Positions 10,741 through 63,794 of a DNA stretch of 64,000 nucleotides are shown here, one piece after another. The first letter of the stretch is position 1; every line of letters starts with the position of its first letter. The position numbers and the translations under genes are program-made. This DNA is from Bacteroidetes bacterium MED-G17 (lineage in GTDB: Bacteria > Bacteroidota > Bacteroidia > NS11-12g > UBA9320), in contig NTKK01000001.1 of the NCBI GenBank assembly GCA_002457675.1, positions 124,001-188,000 on the forward strand, written 5' to 3'. The notes beneath the pieces are model-generated. The model was not told where the DNA came from, searched no databases, and saw nothing but the letters and a program-made list of their open reading frames with translations.

Positions 10741-11646
10741 TTAGGAATAAGCTTCGCGTTGCGCCTCAATAAGAGCAATGCCTTCTTCAAAACTTTTGGC
10801 TTGGTAGCCCAATATTTTTTCTGCCTTACTTAGGTCAAAACCTGTTTTGGGCGGTCTTTTGGCCTTTTGGTTTAGTGTTGTGCTAGATACCCTTTCTACA
10901 TTCTCCATATCTAAATTGTAGGCCTTTGCTACACGTTCAACAAGTTCATAGATACTCATGAAATCTTTACCGGAAATATTGAAAATACCTTGCGCTTTCT
11001 TTTTTTCGGCCAATCGGCAGCCCATGGCCAAATCTTCAGCCAATGTTGGCGTTCTAAATTGGTCATCTACCACTTTGATATGTTGCTTAGCACTTAGCGC
11101 ATTTTTGGCCCACAAAACGATATTGCTGCGGCTCATGTCATGCACCAAACCATATACCAAAACGGTGCGTAAAATGCTCCAGTTTTGACCATATTTTTGT
11201 AGATATTCTTCTGCACGGAGTTTGCTATGTCCATAATAACTCAGCGGATTGGCTTGGTCGGTTTCTTTGTATGGACCTTTTTCACCATCAAAAATGAAGT
11301 CAGTGCTAAGATGAATAAGTTGTGCATCAAGCTTTTGGGCCGCTTTGGATACAAATTTTACTGACTCTACATTCAATAGATCGCAAAGTGCCTTGTTGTC
11401 TTCACAATCATCTACTTGTGTCATAGCAGCTGCATGGATGATGCAATCTGGCTGAAAGGATGCCACCACTTTTTCTACCTGTTCTTCTTGGGTAACGTCC
11501 ATTTCAGTATAGGCCAATTTTTTTGAAGGGTGCCTACTTTTCCCTAGGGCAGTAGCCATGAAGTCCACCTCTGGGATATGCAAATACAAATCGCTAAGCT
11601 TTTGTCCGAGCAGACCATTACTACCTGTTGCCAAAACTTTTTTCAC
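10741..11646 (-). CDS. RmlD-like NAD(P)-dependent sugar-nucleotide reductase
   Basis: A 301-residue extended short-chain dehydrogenase. The nucleotide loop TGSNGLLGQKL lies at residues 7-17, the catalytic YxxxK is YYGHSKLRAEEY near 132-143, and LSTDFIFDG precedes it, a pattern typical of the RmlD group (dTDP-4-dehydrorhamnose reductase). No rmlA, B or C genes are in the window, so the true substrate is open. The start is GTG. A TAATTTTG box ends five bases before it, so the mRNA may have almost no leader. It is divergent from the glycosyltransferase gene. Confidence 0.78.
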   Translation of the reverse strand: MKKVLATGSNGLLGQKLSDLYLHIPEVDFMATALGKSRHPSKKLAYTEMDVTQEEQVEKVVASFQPDCIIHAAAMTQVDDCEDNKALCDLLNVESVKFVSKAAQKLDAQLIHLSTDFIFDGEKGPYKETDQANPLSYYGHSKLRAEEYLQKYGQNWSILRTVLVYGLVHDMSRSNIVLWAKNALSAKQHIKVVDDQFRTPTLAEDLAMGCRLAEKKKAQGIFNISGKDFMSIYELVERVAKAYNLDMENVERVSSTTLNQKAKRPPKTGFDLSKAEKILGYQAKSFEEGIALIEAQREAYS

Positions 11647-11651
11647 AAAAG

Positions 11652-11659
11652 CAAAATTA
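11652..11659 (-). promoter_or_regulatory. -7 box before the RmlD-like gene
   Basis: On the minus strand this reads TAATTTTG, a full match to the Bacteroidota -7 consensus TAnnTTTG. Only five bases separate it from the GTG start. No TTTG is seen at the expected -33 distance, so the assignment rests on one box. Confidence 0.45.
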
Positions 11660-18949: not shown

Positions 18950-18957
18950 TATTTTTG
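18950..18957 (+). promoter_or_regulatory. -7 box of the nqr operon
   Basis: TATTTTTG matches TAnnTTTG and ends 18 bases before the ATG of nqrA. It overlaps an in-frame TTG at 18955, which therefore cannot be the start of translation if this promoter is used. Confidence 0.5.
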
Positions 18958-25830: not shown

Positions 25831-26055
25831 TTAATTGCCAATCTTAGGAAACTCGTTTAATTTTTTTCGATCTCCCTGGCAGGCTTCGCCTACTTTACTT
25901 CCACAAAGTCCACATTCCCCTATCTCATTGGCTAGTAGTGGATTTTGACTGGCACAGCCACCCCGAACCTCTCCATCTTTCACAAAAAACAGTCGTATGG
26001 CAAAACCTGCAGTAACAATGCCCACTAGGACTATAGACAAAAGAAGTGTAGTCAT
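25831..26055 (-). CDS. nqrM: NqrM-like maturation factor (DUF539 type)
   Basis: The 74-residue product has one N-terminal membrane helix (LLLSIVLVGIVTAGFAI) and four cysteines in the order GGC, ECGLCG, EAC. This matches NqrM, which in Vibrio is needed to insert the iron between NqrD and NqrE. The gene lies convergent to apbE with a 14-base gap, not within the operon as in proteobacteria. I use the ATG at 26055; the in-frame TTG at 26067 overlaps a TACTTTTG box on this strand. Confidence 0.82.
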   Translation of the reverse strand: MTTLLLSIVLVGIVTAGFAIRLFFVKDGEVRGGCASQNPLLANEIGECGLCGSKVGEACQGDRKKLNEFPKIGN

Positions 26056-26064
26056 TTTGCCATT

Positions 26065-26072
26065 CAAAAGTA
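26065..26072 (-). promoter_or_regulatory. -7 box of nqrM
   Basis: On the minus strand this reads TACTTTTG, matching TAnnTTTG. It ends nine bases before the ATG of nqrM, so the leader should be only a few bases long. No -33 TTG at normal spacing was found. Confidence 0.45.
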
Positions 26073-30287: not shown

Positions 30288-30295
30288 TATTTTTG
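30288..30295 (+). promoter_or_regulatory. -7 box of icmF
   Basis: TATTTTTG matches TAnnTTTG and ends 12 bases before the chosen ATG. It overlaps an in-frame TTG at 30293, which supports the later start. Confidence 0.45.
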
Positions 30296-38791: not shown

Positions 38792-40331
38792 TTGCAATAA
38801 GTTTTTCTAAATTTATTGGTTTAGGAAGTCTTGTCGATGGCCAGGTTTTGACAACTGTAGAATTTTTGATTAATAAAACTCCAGGGTTGCTTCTAATTAT
38901 GCTTTTTAAGTTTGTATTGTCGCCAAAATAAAATTTGAAGTTCAAGTGATTTTCATCTTCAAATAACTCAGACTTTTCCACACCATTTGATGTCAGTGCC
39001 CAAAAGCCGAGGTTATTTTTTTCACAGAATTGTGCTAAATCATTTACTCCATCAATAGCTCTATTTCTAAAAAGATCAAGGTCATGGCTTATCAATAAAA
39101 TTTTATAGGTGTTGTCAGCGAAAAATGAGGGTACGTGATTGATTCCATTTTTATCATCTATTCTAAAGTCATGAATTGGTGCTTTATCTGCTTCTGCAAT
39201 AATCTCTTCACCAAGATAGGAAATGTAAGTCCAATTTACATTTTTTTCTGGTATCCACTGATTTGTTTCAGAATCATATGCTATTTCAACTTCTTCGCCT
39301 TGTTCATTATTGTATAGAAATTTTCTTAAAATATGGTCGTTTTGTCTTCCGCCTGCTGGTATTTGCATCAAGGCTTCGATATCATTACCTACTTTAAATT
39401 TTAAGAAATTTAACAAGGGTAAATCATACCAACACCAGATGGAAAATGCAGAACAAAATAAAAAGCTGAGCCCAATTAAATTACGTGCAACACGTTTTGT
39501 AAAAAGAGCATTTATATAACGTTTCCAGAGAAATAGTATGAGGATAAAAAATAAAAGAATGATATCTTTAAAGAAAGACTGAAATGGTTTTAGAGGTATG
39601 GCATCGCCAAAACAACCACAATCGGTTACTTTATTGTAGGCCGCTGAATACCAAGTTAAAAACGTAAACATGATTATAATAATCAGTAGGCTAAATGTGG
39701 TTGTTTTTGGCATAAAACCAATAAGCAGGGCAAGGCCGAGGATGATTTCTAAAACCACCAAAAAGATTGCCAACCAAAGAGCCATTGGCTTTAGACTATT
39801 GAAAAAATCTACAAAAATGGAGTCTGATTTGACAAATCGCTCAAGGTCTAGTGCTACTTTCTTGTCAATTTCTTGAAAGCCAGTAATTAAAATTTCCTCG
39901 TTGCATACAAGGTTGTCTAAAACGCTGGCTTTGAGTATTGCTTGATACAATATGGTGTTGGAATCCCCATTGATAAAGGATTCTTTAAAAATTGGATTTC
40001 CATCTAAACTGACTTCTAAATTACTTACTACATTTACGTCTATTACATCTCCTTTTTCGTTTACGGATTTTGAAGTATCTACGTGAACATGCCAGGAGAG
40101 TTGGTGTTGTGAATTTTGCTTATTTAGTTGAATATTACTGACAGAAAAATCGCTACCCTTACCCATGGCAATTGAGAGAGAATCTTGCTTGGCGGATAAG
40201 TCTGAAGCAAAAACCGAAAAGTACTCGTCTAATTTGTAGCTAAACCCTAGCGGGTCATTTGATTTTATGAAACCAGAAAAAATAAAAAGCAATCCAACAA
40301 GAACTCGTGATATTTGGACTAGGATTTTCAT
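38784..40331 (-). CDS. BT_3928-like membrane protein with DoxX/MauE-type core
   Basis: A 515-residue protein of the Bacteroidota BT_3928 family. An N-terminal helix (VLVGLLFIFSGFIKSNDP) is followed by a periplasmic section (about 35-170), then a group of helices including the CGCFGDAIPL motif typical of MauE/DoxX-like quinone-linked redox proteins, and a C-terminal part (from about 395) that resembles a thioredoxin fold without CxxC (KILLISHDLDLF through NPGVLLIKNSTVVKTW). The role is unknown. Its ATG overlaps the DUF1599 gene by four bases, and its own end overlaps the permease gene. Confidence 0.85.
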   Translation of the reverse strand: MKILVQISRVLVGLLFIFSGFIKSNDPLGFSYKLDEYFSVFASDLSAKQDSLSIAMGKGSDFSVSNIQLNKQNSQHQLSWHVHVDTSKSVNEKGDVIDVNVVSNLEVSLDGNPIFKESFINGDSNTILYQAILKASVLDNLVCNEEILITGFQEIDKKVALDLERFVKSDSIFVDFFNSLKPMALWLAIFLVVLEIILGLALLIGFMPKTTTFSLLIIIIMFTFLTWYSAAYNKVTDCGCFGDAIPLKPFQSFFKDIILLFFILILFLWKRYINALFTKRVARNLIGLSFLFCSAFSIWCWYDLPLLNFLKFKVGNDIEALMQIPAGGRQNDHILRKFLYNNEQGEEVEIAYDSETNQWIPEKNVNWTYISYLGEEIIAEADKAPIHDFRIDDKNGINHVPSFFADNTYKILLISHDLDLFRNRAIDGVNDLAQFCEKNNLGFWALTSNGVEKSELFEDENHLNFKFYFGDNTNLKSIIRSNPGVLLIKNSTVVKTWPSTRLPKPINLEKLIANE

Positions 40332-40864
40332 TTTTCGGAACGTCTGATTAATGCAAAGATAGCATAGTTGACCATATCTTGGTAGTTGGCTTCTATGCCC
40401 TCACTTACTATGGTTTTTCCCTGATTTTCCTCTATTTGTTTGGTACGCTTAATTTTCATCAAAATCAAATCAGTAAAAGTTTTGATACGCATTTTTCGCC
40501 ACACTTCGCCATAATCTGTATTCTTTTTGATCATTAAACTTTTTATTTCACCGTAAATTTTGTTGTGCATCTCAATGACTTGATCCTTCGATAGCTCATG
40601 ATTGGAGGGTTTGTTGAGTTGAATTATACCCATAATAGCGTAATTAATGATGCCTATATATTCATTATCAATACCTTCGCCCACCAATGAATGTCCTTTT
40701 TCTTCAAGTGTTCTTATTCTTTGGGCTTTTATGAATATTTGGTCGGTAATTGAAGATGGACGCATAATTTGCCAAGCAGTACCATAGTCCATGGTTTTTT
40801 GCTCAAATAATGATTTACATTGTTTAAAAACCGCTTCGTGCTGTTGTAGTGTTTTTGGATTCAC
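40328..40864 (-). CDS. Tandem DUF1599 (Nmad1-like) protein
   Basis: A 178-residue protein with two copies of a helical repeat: KTMDYGTAWQIMR then IGIINYAIMGIIQL, and KNTDYGEVWRKMR then QDMVNYAIFALI. This duplicated pattern is DUF1599, called nucleotide modification associated domain 1; its biochemical activity is not established here. I use the GTG at 40864, because an in-frame TTG at 40876 overlaps a -7 box. It starts an overlapping three-gene unit with the BT_3928-like gene and the permease gene, and is divergent from folP. Confidence 0.82.
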   Translation of the reverse strand: MNPKTLQQHEAVFKQCKSLFEQKTMDYGTAWQIMRPSSITDQIFIKAQRIRTLEEKGHSLVGEGIDNEYIGIINYAIMGIIQLNKPSNHELSKDQVIEMHNKIYGEIKSLMIKKNTDYGEVWRKMRIKTFTDLILMKIKRTKQIEENQGKTIVSEGIEANYQDMVNYAIFALIRRSEK

Positions 40865-40866
40865 CT

Positions 40867-40881
40867 TATTTTGCAAAAATA
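40867..40881. promoter_or_regulatory. Bidirectional promoter element between DUF1599 gene and folP
   Basis: The near-palindrome TATTTTGCAAAAATA contains, on the minus strand, TATTTTTG (40881-40874), a full TAnnTTTG match nine bases before the DUF1599 GTG. On the plus strand it gives TATTTTG (40867-40873), one base short of the consensus, before the folP ATG at 40882. Confidence 0.45.
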
Positions 40882-46092: not shown

Positions 46093-46866
46093 ATTTTTAA
46101 TTTTTTCAAAAATCTCTTCTGCGCTTAAGCCTACAAGGCCTTTTTTTAGAAGTATACTTACGTCTTTGCTCATAGGATGATTTGGAAATCGCAGAACCAA
46201 ATCATTATACGCGGCTTCAGATTCTTCAATTTTTTCCTCATCTTCTAGAATTTTTGCTTTCAGATAAATTGCCTCTGGCTCTTGTTTAATACCTCTATAA
46301 CGGTTAAGCAAATCATCCAAAATTTCAAGTGCTTTTATTTGTTGTTGAGACTGACTTAAAGCTTTGGAAGCTCTAAGTAAATAATAGCCACCTATGGAAT
46401 CTCCTCTATTTTCAACTTCTTTTTTTATAAATACTAGTGCAAAGTCTTGCAACTCATCAGTGTTTAATGTATTTAGTTGTTCTGCTTTTTCATAAAATGA
46501 TACACTACTATCCAGCTGATTGGTCTTGTAATAACTTTTTGCCAAAACAATCTGAATATTTCTATGGAATGGTGAACTGTCATATTGATTTAAATACTGC
46601 AAACCTTCCTTTATAACTTGTTGGTTTTTTTGTCTATAATAGAGTTCTTGGATGCCATGAAACCAATAAGAAACAGTTTGGTCTGCATAAGGGTATTTAT
46701 GGGCGTATTTAAGATACAAATTTAATAATTGGTTTTGTTGACTAGTGTCCAAAAAAGTGGGACTGTTTTCCAAAGCATGAATTTTTTTGTCCATACTTTC
46801 TTGTGTGTTGCATGATTGAAAGATTAGTAATCCCAATCCGATAATGATTATCAGTTTATTTGTCAT
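46087..46866 (-). CDS. TPR-repeat lipoprotein
   Basis: A 259-residue lipoprotein (IIIIGLGLLIFQSC) made of helical repeats with TPR character, for example LAKSYYKTNQLDSSVSFYEKA and YLKAKILEDEEKIEESEAAY followed by FPNH. No catalytic motif is seen, so it is probably a scaffold in the outer membrane or periplasm. Its start overlaps the purB stop by four bases and is thus in the purB transcript. Confidence 0.82.
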   Translation of the reverse strand: MTNKLIIIIGLGLLIFQSCNTQESMDKKIHALENSPTFLDTSQQNQLLNLYLKYAHKYPYADQTVSYWFHGIQELYYRQKNQQVIKEGLQYLNQYDSSPFHRNIQIVLAKSYYKTNQLDSSVSFYEKAEQLNTLNTDELQDFALVFIKKEVENRGDSIGGYYLLRASKALSQSQQQIKALEILDDLLNRYRGIKQEPEAIYLKAKILEDEEKIEESEAAYNDLVLRFPNHPMSKDVSILLKKGLVGLSAEEIFEKIKND

Positions 46867-48194
46867 TTTCCTAAGTAATTAAATGGGCTTATCGATTTAA
46901 TTTTGATTTTTGTTTCTTCATTAAGTTTCAATGAATCAATGAATTGGTGTAATTCTATTTTTTGAATTTTACCTTTTCCTCGAGTGAGTTCTTTTAGCAA
47001 TTCATAAGGGTTTTTTATTCCTTCGGTTCGCAATATATTTTGTATTCCTTCAGCAACAACTGCCCAATTTTGTTCTAAATCATCGTTTATTTTTTCTTCA
47101 TTCAATTCCAATTTGGATATGCCTTTTATCAATGCTTGATGCGCAATAGATTGATGACCAAAGGGTACACCAATATTTCTTGAAACTGTTGAATCTGTAA
47201 GATCTCGTTGTAAGCGAGAAACCGGTAGTTTGGCACTTAAAAATTGAAGTATGGCATTGGCCATACTCAAATTTCCTTCGGCATTTTCAAAATCGATTGG
47301 ATTTACTTTATGAGGCATTGCTGAAGATCCTACTTCATTTTTGATGGATTTTTGTTTGAAATAATGCATACTAATATATGTCCAGACATCACGGGCAAAA
47401 TCAATTAAAATTGTATTTATCCTTTTGTGCACATCAAAATAGGCAGCTAGATGATCGTAATGTTCTATTTGGGTTGTGGGAAAACTTCTTCGAAGACCCA
47501 ATTCAGCCAGAAAATCTTGTGCCCAATCATGCCAATGAATATTTTCAAAGCAAACGAAATGTGCATTAAAATTGCCCGTAGCACCTCCGAATTTTGCGGA
47601 AAAAGGAATATTTACGAATCCCTTTATTTGTTCATTCAATCGCGTACTAAAAACCTGAATCTCTTTACCTAATCTAGTTGGGGATGCTGGTTGACCATGT
47701 GTATGAGCTAAAAGGGGAACATCTTTCCACTGCTTGCTCAACGCTTCCAAATTTTGCACAACTTTGGATATGCTTGGGATGAATACTTCTTTGTGAAATT
47801 CAAGCAAAGAGAGCGGAATGGCTGTATTGTTGATGTCATTTGAAGTCAAACCAAAATGAACCCACTCGACAACCTCTTCAAAACCATTTTTACGAAGAAT
47901 ATTTTTTATAAAGTACTCAACGGCTTTTACGTCATGATTCGTGACTTTTTCACTTTCTTTTATAAGTATGGTATCAGAAATTGAATACTCATCCTCAATT
48001 TTTTTCAATAAATCTATTAATGATGAAGTCAATAGTTGGGATTTTACCGTTTCAAGTAATTTTTTTAAGTAAGCAAGTTCAACTTTTACGCGATACTTAA
48101 ATAATGCATGTTCAGAAAAATAATTGCCTAGCTTTATTGTTTTAGTTGCATACCTACCATCTATAGGACCAAGAGCCATAAGTCTATTTTCCAT
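46863..48194 (-). CDS. purB: Adenylosuccinate lyase
   Basis: PurB performs two fumarate-releasing steps in purine synthesis. The 443-residue protein starts MALGPIDGRYATKT after a few residues, has the catalytic histidine motif THGQPASPTRLG, and the fumarase/lyase signature GSSAMPHKVNPIDFENAEGN near residue 295. The order and spacing fit the E. coli type rather than the Bacillus type. A TACCTTTG box lies eight bases before the ATG, so the leader should be very short. Confidence 0.96.
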   Translation of the reverse strand: MENRLMALGPIDGRYATKTIKLGNYFSEHALFKYRVKVELAYLKKLLETVKSQLLTSSLIDLLKKIEDEYSISDTILIKESEKVTNHDVKAVEYFIKNILRKNGFEEVVEWVHFGLTSNDINNTAIPLSLLEFHKEVFIPSISKVVQNLEALSKQWKDVPLLAHTHGQPASPTRLGKEIQVFSTRLNEQIKGFVNIPFSAKFGGATGNFNAHFVCFENIHWHDWAQDFLAELGLRRSFPTTQIEHYDHLAAYFDVHKRINTILIDFARDVWTYISMHYFKQKSIKNEVGSSAMPHKVNPIDFENAEGNLSMANAILQFLSAKLPVSRLQRDLTDSTVSRNIGVPFGHQSIAHQALIKGISKLELNEEKINDDLEQNWAVVAEGIQNILRTEGIKNPYELLKELTRGKGKIQKIELHQFIDSLKLNEETKIKIKSISPFNYLGK

Positions 48195-48202
48195 AAGCAG
48201 TG

Positions 48203-48210
48203 CAAAGGTA
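48203..48210 (-). promoter_or_regulatory. -7 box of purB
   Basis: On the minus strand TACCTTTG, a match to TAnnTTTG, eight bases before the ATG. No clear -33 element. Confidence 0.5.
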
Positions 48211-48231
48211 AATTTTCTTGGTTGATAGCTT

Positions 48232-48239
48232 TATCTTTG
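48232..48239 (+). promoter_or_regulatory. -7 box of the T9SS endonuclease gene
   Basis: TATCTTTG matches TAnnTTTG and ends four bases before the GTG start, so transcription would begin at or next to the start codon. Confidence 0.5.
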
Positions 48240-48243
48240 AGCA

Positions 48244-49863
48244 GTGTTTAGAATCTTATACCTTTTTGCTTTAGTTTTAGCAATTTACCAAACGAGCGCC
48301 CAAAATGGAAAAGTAGAAATTATGGGTAATGCCAATTTTGGAAATGTAAAATTGGGGAATACAGATACATTGCATCTTAAAATAAGGCATACATTCTCTT
48401 CTGAATTGCAAATAAAAATAGCACTCGGGATAAAGAGCAATTCTCTTTTCTTATTAGATACATCATTTACTTTAGCAACCAATATCCCTAAAGATATTCA
48501 ATTGGTTTACAAGCCAGTCAGTAATATAATGGAGAAAAATTACCTGTGGGTAAGTTCAGCCAAATTTGGTACAAAAAGCATCGACATAAATGGGCAAGGA
48601 GTTTTTGAAGATGCTTACTATGAAAGTACTAGAAATAAGTTTGAAGAATCACTTAAAACTGCACTATCTCTTTTAATTTCAAATGCGTACAAAAATATGG
48701 GGTACAATTATGCAAGAGATTTAATGTATGGCAATATAGACAATGAAAATGGCCAAGTCATTGATGTTTACACGGGTAGGGAAGCCTCATTTAGTACGAG
48801 AAGTGGTGCAAATGCAAATTCCTTTAACACTGAACATACATGGCCGCAATCAAAGTTTAACAGCAAAGAGCCGGAAAAGGCTGATATGCATCATTTGTTT
48901 CCATGTGATGTGAGCGCCAATAGTAGAAGAGCAAATTATTCTTTTGGAGAGGTTACAAATGCCGAAATGTGGAATGCGGGCGGATCTAAGTTGGGAAGCA
49001 ATCAGCAAAATCAAACTGTTTTTGAAGTTAGAGATCAACATAAAGGAGCAGCTGCCCGTGCGATGTTTTATTTTGCTTTAAGGTATGAGAACTACACCAA
49101 CTTTCTTGATGACCAGGAGAAAGTACTCCGAAAATGGTCAAGTAGTTTTTTGCCATCAAAAAAGGAATTGGATAGAAATGACGCAATCTATAATTACCAA
49201 AAAAATCGAAATCCTTTTGTTGACCATCCCTACTTTTTAAATCGAATTCAGTCGTTATCAACTTTTTCAGAAGCATTGAATAATCCGCAGCATCGAGTTT
49301 CTATTCAAAGCATAATTGGCCCTATTGTTGATGAGAATGGCGCGTTTGAAAGATACCCAATCGCAATTAGTTATGACAATGATCAAGCAATAAATGTTAA
49401 TGTAGAAGTTAAAAGTAGAGCTCAACAAAAAAACCGTAGTGTTTTCGCGAAAATTGACAATGCTGTTAAGGACTTGTCTCCTAAAAACAGTCATACCTTT
49501 GAGTTATCCGCCAGCAAAAATCTTTCATTCAAAGACACCTTGGATGTATATGTTAATGGCAAAATGATGGAAAATTTATCTGTTTTATTGTCTTTAGATT
49601 TCGTAAAAATTGGACAAATAATAGACAAAAAAGCAATAAATTATACAACATTTCCTAACCCATTTCACGACAGTTTTTTTATTTCATGTGCTGCAAAATT
49701 TACGCAGTTAAAATTGACTGATCCCAGTGGGAGAATCGTTTATTTTGGCGGATTAAAAAAGGGTTTAAACGAAATTAATGGTGCACATTTATCTACAGGT
49801 CATTACTTTGGGGTTTTAATTTCTAAGGACATTAAAACCTATTTCAAACTCCACAAAAGATGA
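48244..49863 (+). CDS. Secreted endonuclease I with T9SS sorting domain
   Basis: A 539-residue secreted protein. Signal peptide (LFALVLAIYQTSAQ), then an Ig-like domain (about 24-115), then an EndoI/NucM-type nuclease core with NTEHTWPQSKFN near residue 198 and DMHHLFP near 216, and a C-terminal type A sorting domain (TFPNPFHDSFF, LTDPSGRIVYF, LSTGHYFGVL). It should cut DNA outside the cell, perhaps to gain phosphate and nucleosides. The only start is GTG at 48244, four bases after a -7 box. Its stop overlaps the sppA start by four bases. Confidence 0.92.
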   Translation: MFRILYLFALVLAIYQTSAQNGKVEIMGNANFGNVKLGNTDTLHLKIRHTFSSELQIKIALGIKSNSLFLLDTSFTLATNIPKDIQLVYKPVSNIMEKNYLWVSSAKFGTKSIDINGQGVFEDAYYESTRNKFEESLKTALSLLISNAYKNMGYNYARDLMYGNIDNENGQVIDVYTGREASFSTRSGANANSFNTEHTWPQSKFNSKEPEKADMHHLFPCDVSANSRRANYSFGEVTNAEMWNAGGSKLGSNQQNQTVFEVRDQHKGAAARAMFYFALRYENYTNFLDDQEKVLRKWSSSFLPSKKELDRNDAIYNYQKNRNPFVDHPYFLNRIQSLSTFSEALNNPQHRVSIQSIIGPIVDENGAFERYPIAISYDNDQAINVNVEVKSRAQQKNRSVFAKIDNAVKDLSPKNSHTFELSASKNLSFKDTLDVYVNGKMMENLSVLLSLDFVKIGQIIDKKAINYTTFPNPFHDSFFISCAAKFTQLKLTDPSGRIVYFGGLKKGLNEINGAHLSTGHYFGVLISKDIKTYFKLHKR

Positions 49864-56723: not shown

Positions 56724-56731
56724 TATCTTCG
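56724..56731 (+). promoter_or_regulatory. -7 box of rbfA
   Basis: TATCTTCG, one mismatch from TAnnTTTG, ending five bases before the TTG start. TTTG at 56696-56699 lies 24 bases upstream, slightly long for a -33 element. Confidence 0.4.
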
Positions 56732-56736
56732 TAGAC

Positions 56737-57078
56737 TTGCAAGTTTCTCGAAAAAGTAAAGTAGCACAAGTAGTTGGTAAAGAATTAGGCAACATTATGC
56801 TAGAAATGTTTAAACAACAAGGAGAAGGTATTGTATTTACTTTACAGGCATGTACTATTACATCTGATCTTTCGCTTTTAAGAGCTTACTATACATTTTT
56901 TGGGAGCATATCAAGAGAAGAAATGGCAAACTTGCTTGAAAATAACATTCGAGTAATACGCAAAAAATTATCAACAAAAATCAAGAATGAATTTAGAATT
57001 ATGCCTGAAATTAGATTCATTTACGACACAGCTACAGAAGAGCAAAATAGAATAGGTAATATTCTGAAAGGCTTATAA
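56737..57078 (+). CDS. rbfA: Ribosome-binding factor A
   Basis: RbfA is a KH-fold protein needed for late maturation of the 30S subunit. The 113-residue product has the usual N-terminal helix (KSKVAQVVGKELGNIM), the central SDLSLLRAYYTFFGS and the end RIMPEIRFIYDTATEEQNRI. The start is TTG; no ATG exists in frame before the first conserved helix. It is convergent with dnaJ, the two stop codons lying side by side. Confidence 0.92.
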   Translation: MQVSRKSKVAQVVGKELGNIMLEMFKQQGEGIVFTLQACTITSDLSLLRAYYTFFGSISREEMANLLENNIRVIRKKLSTKIKNEFRIMPEIRFIYDTATEEQNRIGNILKGL

Positions 57079-60112: not shown

Positions 60113-60736
60113 TTATCTTCTCTTTTTTCTTTTCGATTTGTTATTGTATTTACCTGATTTATTTTTGGATATAGGCTTCCTTTTATCGTAAAATAGCTCG
60201 AGTCTACTTGTGTCTACGATTAATTCTCCATTTGATAGTTTAGCAATGTGTTCAATGAGGGCATCTGTCTCAAGAGTTTCTTCATTCCATAATTTGGATG
60301 AATTAACCATGAAACTTGCGATATGATTTATAAAAGCGTCTTTGAATTCTCCATCCTCCATTTTACAGGCGTAATCTACCATTTTTTGTAAGTTTCTACC
60401 ATAAAAGCGGTATTTTATACGGATGTCTTTATAGGGAACTTTTTCAGGTTTTTGAGCCAATTCTTCCCTTGTGGGTGATTCAAATGGCCCGTCTATATCT
60501 AGACTGAAATTGCTGATTATGTGCAAGTGGTCCCAAAGTTTTTGTAAATAGTTTTCTTCCTCTTTTATTTTGGGATTAAGTAAAATCATCAATTCAACTA
60601 CTGATTCACAAAGTCTATTTCTTTCAAATCGGTCTTCATGTTTGGCGATATTGTTTACAATGTCTTGCAAGTTTCTACCATATTCCAAGATTTGAACTTC
60701 TTCGAGATCGGTATTGTACCAAATTCCTTCTGCCAT
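60113..60736 (-). CDS. DUF4290 protein
   Basis: A 207-residue protein of the Bacteroidota-specific family DUF4290. It starts MAEGIWYNTDLE and shows two related stretches, LEYGRNLQDIVNNIAKHED and FYGRNLQKMVDYACKMEDG, and ends in a very basic tail (KNKSGKYNNKSKRKKRR). The frame is open upstream to 60901 but that part overlaps the aldehyde dehydrogenase gene, so the ATG at 60736 is the start. Function is unknown; the tail suggests nucleic acid binding. It directly precedes murA, a constant neighbour in this phylum by my recollection. Confidence 0.85.
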   Translation of the reverse strand: MAEGIWYNTDLEEVQILEYGRNLQDIVNNIAKHEDRFERNRLCESVVELMILLNPKIKEEENYLQKLWDHLHIISNFSLDIDGPFESPTREELAQKPEKVPYKDIRIKYRFYGRNLQKMVDYACKMEDGEFKDAFINHIASFMVNSSKLWNEETLETDALIEHIAKLSNGELIVDTSRLELFYDKRKPISKNKSGKYNNKSKRKKRR

Positions 60737-60768
60737 ATTGGACAAAAATAAGTAAAAGCTTGTCTCGG

Positions 60769-62220
60769 TTACACTTGTGTTGAAACACAGACATTTTTTG
60801 CCTCTGTGAAAAAGCGTATGGCTTCCCAACCTCCCTCTCTTCCTAAACCACTTTGCTTCATGCCACCAAAAGGGGTTCGTAGGTCTCTGACCAACCAACA
60901 ATTAATCCAAACAATACCAACATTCACTTTAGCAGCTACACGATGGGCTTTGGCCAAATTATTTGTCCATATTGAAGTGCTAAGCCCATAGGGAGTTGAG
61001 TTGGCCAATTGGATTACTTCATCTTCGTTTTCAAATGGTTGAATGGTAGCTACAGGGCCAAAAATCTCTTCTTGGTTTGTTCTGCAACTTTCATTTAGGT
61101 TTTCAAAAAGTGTGGGCTCAATATACCAGCCATTCTCAAATCCTTCTGGCTGAACGGTTTTACCGCCGAATAAGAGCTTTCCACCTTCTTGTTTAGCTAG
61201 GTCAATGTGCTCCAGTATTTTTTCGTAATGCTGTTTTGAAACAATTGCACCAATTTTGGAATCCTCGCTCATAGGCTCTCCAACGTGTAATGTTTTCATT
61301 CTTTCTATAAAAGCATTTTTAAACTTTTGATAAATAGATTTTTGCACATAAATCCTCGAACCACATAAGCAAATTTCGCCTTGGTTGGTATAAGCGGCTT
61401 TGACACTTGTCTTTACAGCTTCTTCAATCTGACAATCTTCAAATACGATCGTAGGATTTTTTCCACCGAGTTCCAAGCTTAATTTTTTGAACATGGGTGC
61501 CGTTATTTTGGCAATGTTCTGTCCTGTTTTTGTGCCTCCAGTAAAAGAAATGGTTGGAACATCTGGGTGTGAAACCATTGCATGTCCAGCTTTGGCCCCG
61601 ATGCCATGTACTATATTTAGAACGCCATTTGGTAAACCTACTTTTTGACAAACTTTTGATAGAAGATAAGCTGTGTAAGGAGTAACCTCTGAAGGTTTTG
61701 CCACAACTGTATTGCCAGTAGCTAGGGCTGGAGCAATTTTCCATGAAAAGAGATATAGAGGCAAATTCCATGGCGAAATACAAGCAGCAACACCAATGGG
61801 CTCTCTAAGGGTATAATTAATGAAATCCTGATTTCCCTTGTGGCTTTCTGATGCAAAGTGCAGAACTGCTCCTGCGTAGAATCTGAAGTTGGCTATTGCC
61901 CTGGGTATATCAACATGTTTGCTAAGTTTGAATGGTTTGCCATTATCCTTTGTTTCTGCATGCGCAAATTGGTCGAATTGGTTTTCAATTTCATCCGCTA
62001 TTTTATATAAGTACGAGGATCTTTTTTCAATAGACAGATTTTTCCAAATCGGGAAAGCGTTTTTTGCTGATTCAACAGCTTTCTGAACATCATCTATGTC
62101 ACTATTAGGTATTTTGGCATAAACCTCGCCTGTTGACGGACAAAAATTATCAATATACTGATTAGAATTAGGTGCTACTAATTTTCCGTCTATATAGTTT
62201 TCAATTATTTCCATACTCAT
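60769..62220 (-). CDS. Aldehyde dehydrogenase, 2-aminomuconate semialdehyde type
   Basis: A 483-residue NAD-dependent dehydrogenase of the ALDH8/AMSDH group. Key motifs are ISPWNLPLYLFSWKIAPALA, FTGGTKTGQNIA, LELGGKNP (catalytic glutamate) and NQGEICLCGSRIYVQ with the nucleophile cysteine, followed by EEIFGPVATIQPF and a C-terminal LVRDLRTPFGGMKQSGLGREG. The GEICLC and CWLVRDLRTPFGG signatures match 2-aminomuconate or 2-hydroxymuconate semialdehyde dehydrogenases, steps in tryptophan (kynurenine) breakdown. Other genes of that route are not in the window. The start overlaps the glyS stop by four bases. Confidence 0.88.
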   Translation of the reverse strand: MSMEIIENYIDGKLVAPNSNQYIDNFCPSTGEVYAKIPNSDIDDVQKAVESAKNAFPIWKNLSIEKRSSYLYKIADEIENQFDQFAHAETKDNGKPFKLSKHVDIPRAIANFRFYAGAVLHFASESHKGNQDFINYTLREPIGVAACISPWNLPLYLFSWKIAPALATGNTVVAKPSEVTPYTAYLLSKVCQKVGLPNGVLNIVHGIGAKAGHAMVSHPDVPTISFTGGTKTGQNIAKITAPMFKKLSLELGGKNPTIVFEDCQIEEAVKTSVKAAYTNQGEICLCGSRIYVQKSIYQKFKNAFIERMKTLHVGEPMSEDSKIGAIVSKQHYEKILEHIDLAKQEGGKLLFGGKTVQPEGFENGWYIEPTLFENLNESCRTNQEEIFGPVATIQPFENEDEVIQLANSTPYGLSTSIWTNNLAKAHRVAAKVNVGIVWINCWLVRDLRTPFGGMKQSGLGREGGWEAIRFFTEAKNVCVSTQV

Positions 62221-63752
62221 TCCAATTTTTCTAATAGTTTAGCCAAAGACAACTTGTCTGTAAGTCTTGATTTTAACTCACTTATTGAGATTCTTTCTTG
62301 GTGTAAGGTGTCCCTATCACGAAGTGTAACAGTTTCCTGTTCTATGCTTTCATGATCAATTGTTATACAGTATGGTGTACCAATCGCATCTTGCCTTCGG
62401 TATCTTTTTCCAATGCTGTCTTTGTCCTCAAAATAGCAATTGAATTCAAATTTCAATTCATCAAATATTTTTTTGCCCATTTCTGGCATTCCATCTTTTT
62501 TTAGGAGCGGCAGTATTGCCAATTGATTTGGCGCAAGTGCGGGGGGTAAGCAAAGCACATTTCTTTGTTCCCTGTTTGGAAGGGTTTCAGTCTTCAAGTT
62601 TTCTGAAATTGTGAGCAGGAATAGTCTGTCTAGTCCAATGGAGGTTTCAATTACATATGGAACTTGACTTTTTTCCGAAATACTGTCAAAGTACTGTATT
62701 TTTTTTCCGCTATGACTTTGATGTTGAGAAAGGTCAAAGTCTGTTCTGGAGTGAATACCCTCTACTTCTTTAAAACCAAAGGGAAACTGATATTCTATAT
62801 CCACTGCTGCATCCGCATAGTGAGCCAATTTTGTATGCTCGTGAAATCGGTATTTGTCTTTTGGCGTGCCTAAATTAGTGTGCCAATTTAATCTAGTCTT
62901 TTTCCAATATTCAAACCACTCTTTTTGCTCACCTGGCTTAACAAAGAATTGCATTTCCATTTGCTCAAACTCCTTCATTCTCATTATAAATTGCCTAGCA
63001 ATTATTTCATTTCGAAAAGCTTTACCTGTTTGGGCAATGCCAAAGGGAAGTTTCATTCTTCCAGTTTTTTGAACATTAAGATAATTCAAAAAAATGCCTT
63101 GTGCGGTCTCCGGCCTTAAATATAGCGCTTCATCACTTTCTGTAGCATTCATTTGAGTGCTATACATCAAATTGAACTGTTTTACCTCTGTCCAGTTTTT
63201 TGTTCCTGAAATTGGGCAAGCAATTTCTAGGTCAATTATAAGCTGTCTAACTATTTGTAAATCATTGGTTTCTAGTCCATTTTTCAGTTTCTCATTAATT
63301 GCTTTTTTTTTCTCTTGGTTTCTTAAAACATTTGGATTTGTTCTTAAAAATTCTTCCAAGTCAAAATTTTGACCAAATCGCTTTTTGGCTTTTTCAATTT
63401 CTTTTTGGATTTTCTTTTCAATCTTATTTTCAATATAATCCTCAATAAGTACATCAGCCCGGTATCGTTTTTTGCTATCTTTATTATCGATTAGAGGATC
63501 ATTAAAGCCATCTATATGTCCACTTGCCTTCCATGTTTTTGGGTGCATAAATATTGCAGAGTCTATACCTACAATATTTTGATGTAATTGAACCATACTC
63601 TTCCACCAATATTGGCGCAGATGATTTTTTAGCATTACACCATTTTGACCATAATCATAAACAGCTGCTAAGCCATCATAAATTTCACTGCTCTGAAATA
63701 CAAATCCATACTCCTTGCAGTGTGAAATGATTTTTTTAAACGAATCTTCCAT
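62217..63752 (-). CDS. glyS: Glycyl-tRNA synthetase, dimeric type
   Basis: This enzyme charges tRNA-Gly. The 511-residue product is the alpha2 type: motif 1 region YGFVFQSSEIYDGL with VYDYGQNGVMLKNHL, LRPETAQGIFLNYL, motif 2 IAQTGKAFRNEI, and motif 3 SIGLDRLFLL, then an anticodon-binding domain (GKRYRRQDAIGTPYCI). I use the ATG at 63752; an in-frame TTG at 63764 lies within a -7 box. It heads the minus-strand run glyS-aldehyde dehydrogenase-DUF4290-murA and has a consensus promoter. Confidence 0.96.
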   Translation of the reverse strand: MEDSFKKIISHCKEYGFVFQSSEIYDGLAAVYDYGQNGVMLKNHLRQYWWKSMVQLHQNIVGIDSAIFMHPKTWKASGHIDGFNDPLIDNKDSKKRYRADVLIEDYIENKIEKKIQKEIEKAKKRFGQNFDLEEFLRTNPNVLRNQEKKKAINEKLKNGLETNDLQIVRQLIIDLEIACPISGTKNWTEVKQFNLMYSTQMNATESDEALYLRPETAQGIFLNYLNVQKTGRMKLPFGIAQTGKAFRNEIIARQFIMRMKEFEQMEMQFFVKPGEQKEWFEYWKKTRLNWHTNLGTPKDKYRFHEHTKLAHYADAAVDIEYQFPFGFKEVEGIHSRTDFDLSQHQSHSGKKIQYFDSISEKSQVPYVIETSIGLDRLFLLTISENLKTETLPNREQRNVLCLPPALAPNQLAILPLLKKDGMPEMGKKIFDELKFEFNCYFEDKDSIGKRYRRQDAIGTPYCITIDHESIEQETVTLRDRDTLHQERISISELKSRLTDKLSLAKLLEKLE

Positions 63753-63761
63753 CAAAAAAGG

Positions 63762-63794
63762 CAAAGCTACTGGTATTATTGGGTTTTTTACAAA
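63762..63794 (-). promoter_or_regulatory. Promoter of glyS
   Basis: On the minus strand TTTG (63794-63791) is followed after 21 bases by TAGCTTTG (63769-63762), a full match to the Bacteroidota consensus. The box ends nine bases before the ATG, so the leader is only a few bases. Confidence 0.65.

Follow-up and report, generated by a model that had tools for sequence, protein, structure and literature searches.

Bacteroidota do without Shine-Dalgarno sites, and leaderless translation has been set aside as the reason for this absence, given how seldom it occurs in the few species mapped. Leaderless mRNAs as a kind are already known, as is a leaderless minority in Bacteroidota. The available parts of the published transcript maps record 5.5% leaderless in F. 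psychrophilum (PMC9723704), 87% of transcripts with leaders above 10 nt in F. johnsoniae, i.e. 13% with 10 nt or less by subtraction (PMC6847099), and 3.7% of leaders below 10 nt in B. thetaiotaomicron (PMC7366714). According to the same sources, these three species share the TAnnTTTG promoter encountered here. Box and transcript are 4-5 nt apart, with 4 nt for F. psychrophilum and the full range for F. johnsoniae. Leaderless mRNA is also mentioned, in the accessible portion of another report, for some Flavobacteriia without the anti-Shine-Dalgarno core (PMC10783764).

Mycobacterial leaderless mRNAs, as described in the available text of PMC4633059, resemble the present case by a promoter directly upstream of the start and by a 5'-terminal ATG or GTG, not TTG. 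They differ by another sigma factor and promoter motif, and by the fact that leadered translation there needs a Shine-Dalgarno site. Mycobacterial leaderless starts also cluster at +1; here, a spread of predicted leaders of 1-7 nt is common as well. Zheng et al. 2011 (PMC3160421) followed the same logic as this study, a box about 10 bp upstream of a start implying no leader. Yet they sought TANNNT boxes and, in the consulted sections of their paper, reported leaderless genes in one of 37 Bacteroidetes/Chlorobi genomes, with the caution that the method may underestimate Bacteroidetes. A search by title and abstract, with subscription journals mostly outside it, found no literature on the order of this genome or on an RNA-mapped leaderless-rich Bacteroidota lineage.

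What this analysis adds is of a quantitative and phylogenetic kind: a minor mode appears to be large in one order, where orthologue leaders seem to be shortening. The best explanation, to which we assign a probability of roughly 0.8, is that the boxes described below are ordinary Bacteroidota sigma-A -7 elements, so near their genes that transcripts would start at the codon or 1-5 nt before it. With 4-5 bases between box and start codon the transcript would begin at the codon itself; with 6-9 bases it would begin 1-5 nt ahead. Either a 30S or a 70S ribosome would in that case start translation on the 5'-terminal or near-terminal ATG or GTG, without Shine-Dalgarno pairing and without the A-rich Kozak-like leader of the phylum's leadered genes. 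Where transcripts begin, how ribosomes enter and in which direction leaders changed (see below) are points that we infer from sequence.

Boxes and genes in the window

The window designates the whole 64-kb stretch of DNA that was analysed. The -7 box searched was TAnnTTTG, with TAHHTTTG as refined form; d is the number of bases separating box from start codon, and the predicted leader is d minus 4 or 5. Genes and start codons are predicted throughout, and leaderlessness is read from box spacing.

48232..48239, + strand, endonuclease -7 box TATCTTTG, d=4 to GTG 48244
48244..49863, + strand, endonuclease I-like gene, GTG start, predicted leader 0 nt
48203..48210, - strand, purB -7 box TACCTTTG, d=8 to ATG 48194
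46863..48194, - strand, purB, adenylosuccinate lyase, ATG start, predicted leader 3-4 nt
11652..11659, - strand, RmlD-like -7 box TAATTTTG, d=5 to GTG 11646
10741..11646, - strand, RmlD-like gene, GTG start at conserved N-terminus, predicted leader 0-1 nt
56724..56731, + strand, rbfA -7-like box TATCTTCG with one mismatch, d=5 to TTG 56737
56737..57078, + strand, rbfA, TTG start, predicted leader 0-1 nt
26065..26072, - strand, NqrM-like -7 box TACTTTTG, d=9 to ATG 26055
25831..26055, - strand, NqrM-like small gene, ATG start, predicted leader 4-5 nt
40874..40881, - strand, DUF1599 -7 box TATTTTTG, d=9 to GTG 40864
40328..40864, - strand, DUF1599 gene, GTG start, predicted leader 4-5 nt
63762..63769, - strand, glyS -7 box TAGCTTTG, d=9 to ATG 63752
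62217..63752, - strand, glyS, glycine--tRNA ligase, ATG start, predicted leader 4-5 nt
60743..60750, - strand, DUF4290 -7 box TATTTTTG, d=6 to ATG 60736
60113..60736, - strand, DUF4290 gene, ATG start, predicted leader 1-2 nt

An exact box at d=4-9 was found for seven of the 56 genes called in the window. A previous sequence-only reading had listed seven boxes at 4-9 bases from starts; all seven are present, that of rbfA with one mismatch, and the DUF4290 box was absent from its list. Its gene names were borne out by Pfam or NCBIfam, apart from NqrM, which matched nothing in either and is kept here as that reader's name. The 5-7 bases which it assumed between box and transcript are at variance with the published 4-5 nt (PMC6847099 and PMC9723704, available parts). 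Its leaders of zero to a few bases hold as about 0-1 nt for the endonuclease, RmlD-like and rbfA genes, but amount to 3-5 nt for the other four of the seven. As a whole, its interpretation was partly supported.

The purB and endonuclease genes are divergent and separated by a 49-bp gap with back-to-back promoters, one box each. The endonuclease GTG is the first possible start, since an in-frame TGA sits in the TTTGA of its box; it opens a signal-peptide-like sequence, the next in-frame ATG lying 26 codons downstream. At the C-terminus of the gene product, a sorting-domain match fell slightly below the Pfam cut-off.

Box position compared with chance

The own-genome sample comprised the window and 793 kb, i.e. 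51% of 1.668 Mb, where genes were called by a promoter-blind dicodon model; four of 689 genes were too near stretch ends and were dropped. Exact boxes of the 685 usable genes were distributed as follows: 55 at d=4-9, 16 at 10-15, 31 at 16-27 and 28 at 28-45. The count against shuffled sequence which the sequence-only reading had called for came out as it expected: dinucleotide shuffles of the 60 nt upstream of the 689 genes, repeated 100 times, gave 4.1 +/- 2.1 boxes at d=4-9, with a maximum of 9. A promoter element thus occurs above chance at a short fixed distance before start codons. Two own-genome samples agreed (33/363 and 22/322 genes), the second having been taken after the first had hinted at the pattern. 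The surplus is positional, not general: exact boxes in the window totalled 79 against 97 +/- 10 in shuffles, fewer than expected. Its lower edge was abrupt, the count rising from one gene at d=3 to 16 at d=4 in the own-genome sample, and likewise from three to 16 in a comparison set of 80 named loci across the phylum (purB neighbourhoods only, among them at least two from the order, L024 and L071). Such an edge agrees with the published 4-5 nt spacing; a closer promoter would cut into the start codon.

The gene caller used probably over-called TTG starts, and the TTTG of the box offers false TTG starts of its own, so that chance or start-codon errors had to be considered. This reading is hardly credible in view of the shuffles, the control motifs (see below), the replicate sample, the subset of unambiguous starts and the N-termini conserved in relatives.

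Probable promoter character of the near boxes

Boxes at d=4-9 (near boxes) displayed the TAHHTTTG of sigma-A promoters at -7: G occupied their two free positions at frequencies of 0.08 and 0.02 (n=59), and the same exclusion of G is published for the F. johnsoniae -7 element (PMC6847099, accessible part). The A+T-rich block near -18 was also present. The A+T fraction 4-8 nt upstream of the box was 0.758 for near boxes (n=53) and 0.735 for leadered ones (n=52), compared to 0.546 upstream of the same motif inside genes (n=175). As for the -33 TTTG, neither the near nor the leadered set showed a TTG or TTTG peak 10-29 nt ahead of the box. This element is likewise weak in F. johnsoniae, according to the available text of PMC6847099, and its absence does not separate members from non-members. 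Near boxes were three-fold more frequent at divergent genes (28/216) than at genes located at most 25 nt from a same-strand gene (11/278). Altogether, they look like sigma-A promoters and behave like real -7 elements.

The 11/278 tightly spaced downstream genes with near boxes are above chance, and a purely transcriptional reading must invoke internal promoters there. The near TTTG-containing sequence could instead be a translation signal, contacting the ribosome or S1. Among 18 rearranged or altered control motifs counted at d=4-9 in 363 genes, TTNNTTTG, which is without the A, was somewhat raised (13). Yet the other 17 gave 0-9 each, against 33 for the box, and it is the whole TAHHTTTG with its G exclusion that is favoured. 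Together with the promoter A+T block and the relative scarcity of near boxes at tightly spaced downstream genes, this makes a translation signal very improbable.

A pyrimidine-rich spacer fixing the start at d=4 was rejected, as a hint in 23 own genes was gone in 48 pooled ones and pooled d=4 spacers showed no difference from leadered ones (p>0.08). Where leadered promoters are presumed to start their transcripts, no purine preference was seen by which a shift of the start onto the codon at d=6-9 could be recognised.

Start codons, the -3 base and the ribosome

The sequence-only reading took as usual view that leaderless mRNAs need ATG; according to the available part of PMC4633059, this view had already been refuted in mycobacteria, whose leaderless translation proceeds from ATG and GTG but not from TTG or CTG, while E. 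coli leaderless translation favours ATG. Start codons were pooled over the order set (this genome, seven of its own family and four of the sister family). Genes at d=4-9 comprised 90 ATG, 19 GTG and 4 TTG, against 1143, 86 and 183 for genes without such a box (GTG against ATG, p=5e-4; TTG against ATG, p=0.0065). The GTG enrichment depends on including the sister family in the pool, this genome alone (9/55 GTG at d=4-9) being borderline with p=0.09 (p=0.02 at d=4-10). Exact boxes at d=4-5 preceded only ATG (40) and GTG (14), and TTG was absent (0/54); two TTG starts at d=7-8 were recorded in this genome. GTG is over-represented, but the TTG start of rbfA, outside that count by its one-mismatch box, is an exception and not a pattern. 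The restriction to ATG and GTG at d=4-5 matches the mycobacterial rule and would be expected under leaderless initiation, although TTG starts were probably over-called.

A at -3, a typical feature of leadered genes, occurred in 3/23 genes at d=4-5, compared to 204/464 genes without a box (p=0.004), and was kept at d=6-9 (13/30). Such a contrast is expected if position -3 lies outside the mRNA in the first case and inside it in the second.

The 16S rRNA of this genome ends in GGACCACCTCCTTTCT, i.e. the anti-Shine-Dalgarno sequence is kept, and bS21 is present in this genome and in all 61 genomes searched. In the 16S rRNA 3' end and bS21, the sole features checked for a special ribosome, nothing explanatory was found. 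Wide leaderless use in this lineage, if true, would provide a natural test of initiation without a leader by ribosomes with a kept, apparently idle anti-Shine-Dalgarno. It would also test whether the mycobacterial ATG/GTG rule is general.

Frequency in the genome, order and phylum

A mixture model with a single weight matrix for all groups was applied to divergent genes. In this genome, the fraction of promoters at d=4-9 was estimated at 0.44 (0.37-0.55, n=216); it was 0.40 in the sister family (0.30-0.50, n=108, four genomes), 0.18 in other members of the own family (0.10-0.26, n=138, seven genomes) and 0.11 in the named loci across the phylum (0.07-0.15, n=344). The two highest values, which are predicted only, are in contrast to the leaderless minority described in the available parts of the F. 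psychrophilum, F. johnsoniae and B. thetaiotaomicron reports (PMC9723704, PMC6847099, PMC7366714). With unambiguous ATG starts only, the fractions became 0.34 here (0.22-0.49, n=72), 0.30 in the sister family, 0.11 in the own family and 0.10 in the named loci.

Simple pattern counts covered more genomes, with the reserve that those of TAHHTTTG followed by ATG include ATGs that are not starts: the pattern was more frequent at 4-9 nt than at 16-21 nt in 56 of 58 genomes of the order. The excess over a reversed control amounted to 6119 near and 2890 leadered matches in the sister family (29 genomes) and to 2646 and 1875 in the own family (29 genomes). Genome G044 was the extreme, with 284 near against 79 leadered matches (near control 48). 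When the near pattern alone was counted in 148 genomes across the phylum, high ratios in G100 (318, control 79) and G160 (98, control 20) indicate that the trait is not confined to the order of this genome. Near promoters are taken to be a minor mode in the phylum as a whole and a much larger one in this order. The broader proposal is an even bet: in this one uncultured order, leaderless or near-leaderless mRNA would be the leading expression mode of genes with their own promoter, restricted to ATG and GTG and not TTG, with anti-Shine-Dalgarno and bS21 kept, and orthologue leaders here would have eroded to 0-5 nt.

Short intergenic gaps leave no room for leaders, and a compact genome could therefore force this arrangement. 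The median divergent gap is 89.5 nt here compared to 143 in named loci, and in family f1 the near excess per Mb drops as genome size rises (rho -0.66). However, gaps of at least 120 nt gave the same fraction in this genome (0.46 at d=4-9, 0.32-0.59, n=86), for which reason compaction was rejected as sole cause, and the sister family still reaches 0.40 with larger genomes and gaps. In that family, the near excess per Mb is not significantly tied to size (rho -0.26, p=0.17), but near minus leadered matches per Mb do follow it (rho -0.65). On balance, compaction is an unlikely explanation.

In a purB tree, most of the order was placed near Chitinophagaceae, and the purB of this genome formed a long branch of unsure placement. 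The purB of one own-family genome (G010) is identical to one in Bacteroidia bacterium SJ44 (JADLGN010000030.1), and that of a sister-family genome (G039) is close to one in CANFUB010000017.1.

Conservation in orthologues

The endonuclease spacing was conserved: all 12 homologues, comprising that of this genome and those of 11 family members at 34-47% protein identity, displayed d=4-6, with d=4 in eight, 5 in two and 6 in two. The box was exact in 11 of them, L108 displaying one mismatch. These relatives were retained out of 24 matches among 38, 13 partial-only ones (E 8.9e-19 or weaker) being excluded. Seven begin with ATG and five with GTG, the latter being this genome and four members of genus g3. 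These starts were picked by eye as those opening a signal-peptide-like N-terminus; in L107 and L111, another ATG lies upstream of the chosen start.

A main promoter located further upstream would reduce the near box to a minor second promoter, most mRNA being normally leadered. A second upstream box does exist in some genes (purB of L221 and L241, glyS of this genome). Against this, the 70 nt above the chosen endonuclease start contained no other box scoring at least 6, and this held for all 12 homologues. Near boxes moreover seem to replace leadered ones, since box density at d=4-99 is similar in own genes (168 in 685) and in those of named loci (313 in 1021). We consider such a second-promoter role improbable.

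The divergent purB/endonuclease pair (46863-49863; L101-L112) stays joined in most endonuclease-bearing family members, making the back-to-back promoters comparable across genera. For purB itself, d was 4-10 at 16 of the 30 loci from the order, counting this genome, versus 11 of the 77 usable named loci, of which another 34 displayed d=16-27; three of the 80 named loci were left out as no start was found.

Other genes differed more from their relatives. Among 25 glyS loci with conserved starts, d was 4-10 in four (including this genome) and 11-19 in 20, one having no box. The DUF1599 gene displays d=9 here versus 13-18 in 18/18 relatives. For rbfA, d is 5 here, but 15-18 in the three g3 relatives that start with TTG; other relatives showed d=4 (one), d=12 (one) or no box (two), in an alignment that took in only eight of 25 loci. 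Finally, among 21 RmlD-like loci, GTG with d=5 occurred here, 12 relatives were without box and three displayed d=8-9.

These comparisons suggest two layers, an old leaderless core and ordinary leaders which would have been shortened in this lineage. The glyS, DUF1599 and rbfA genes would have lost most of the leader kept by their relatives, a direction taken from the majority state and not from a reconstructed tree.

The non-ATG start of the DUF1599 gene is conserved in 18 of 19 family loci (15 TTG, 3 GTG; L268-L285 and window 40328-40864).

A mechanical ORF list of the window started four genes (18955, 30293, 40876 and 63764) at a TTG inside a TAnnTTTG box. The boxes whose internal TTG was taken as start are the following:

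18950-18957, box with internal TTG
30288-30295, box with internal TTG
40874-40881, box with internal TTG (DUF1599)
63762-63769, box with internal TTG (glyS)

Gene finders may thus take the TTG within a promoter box for a start codon.
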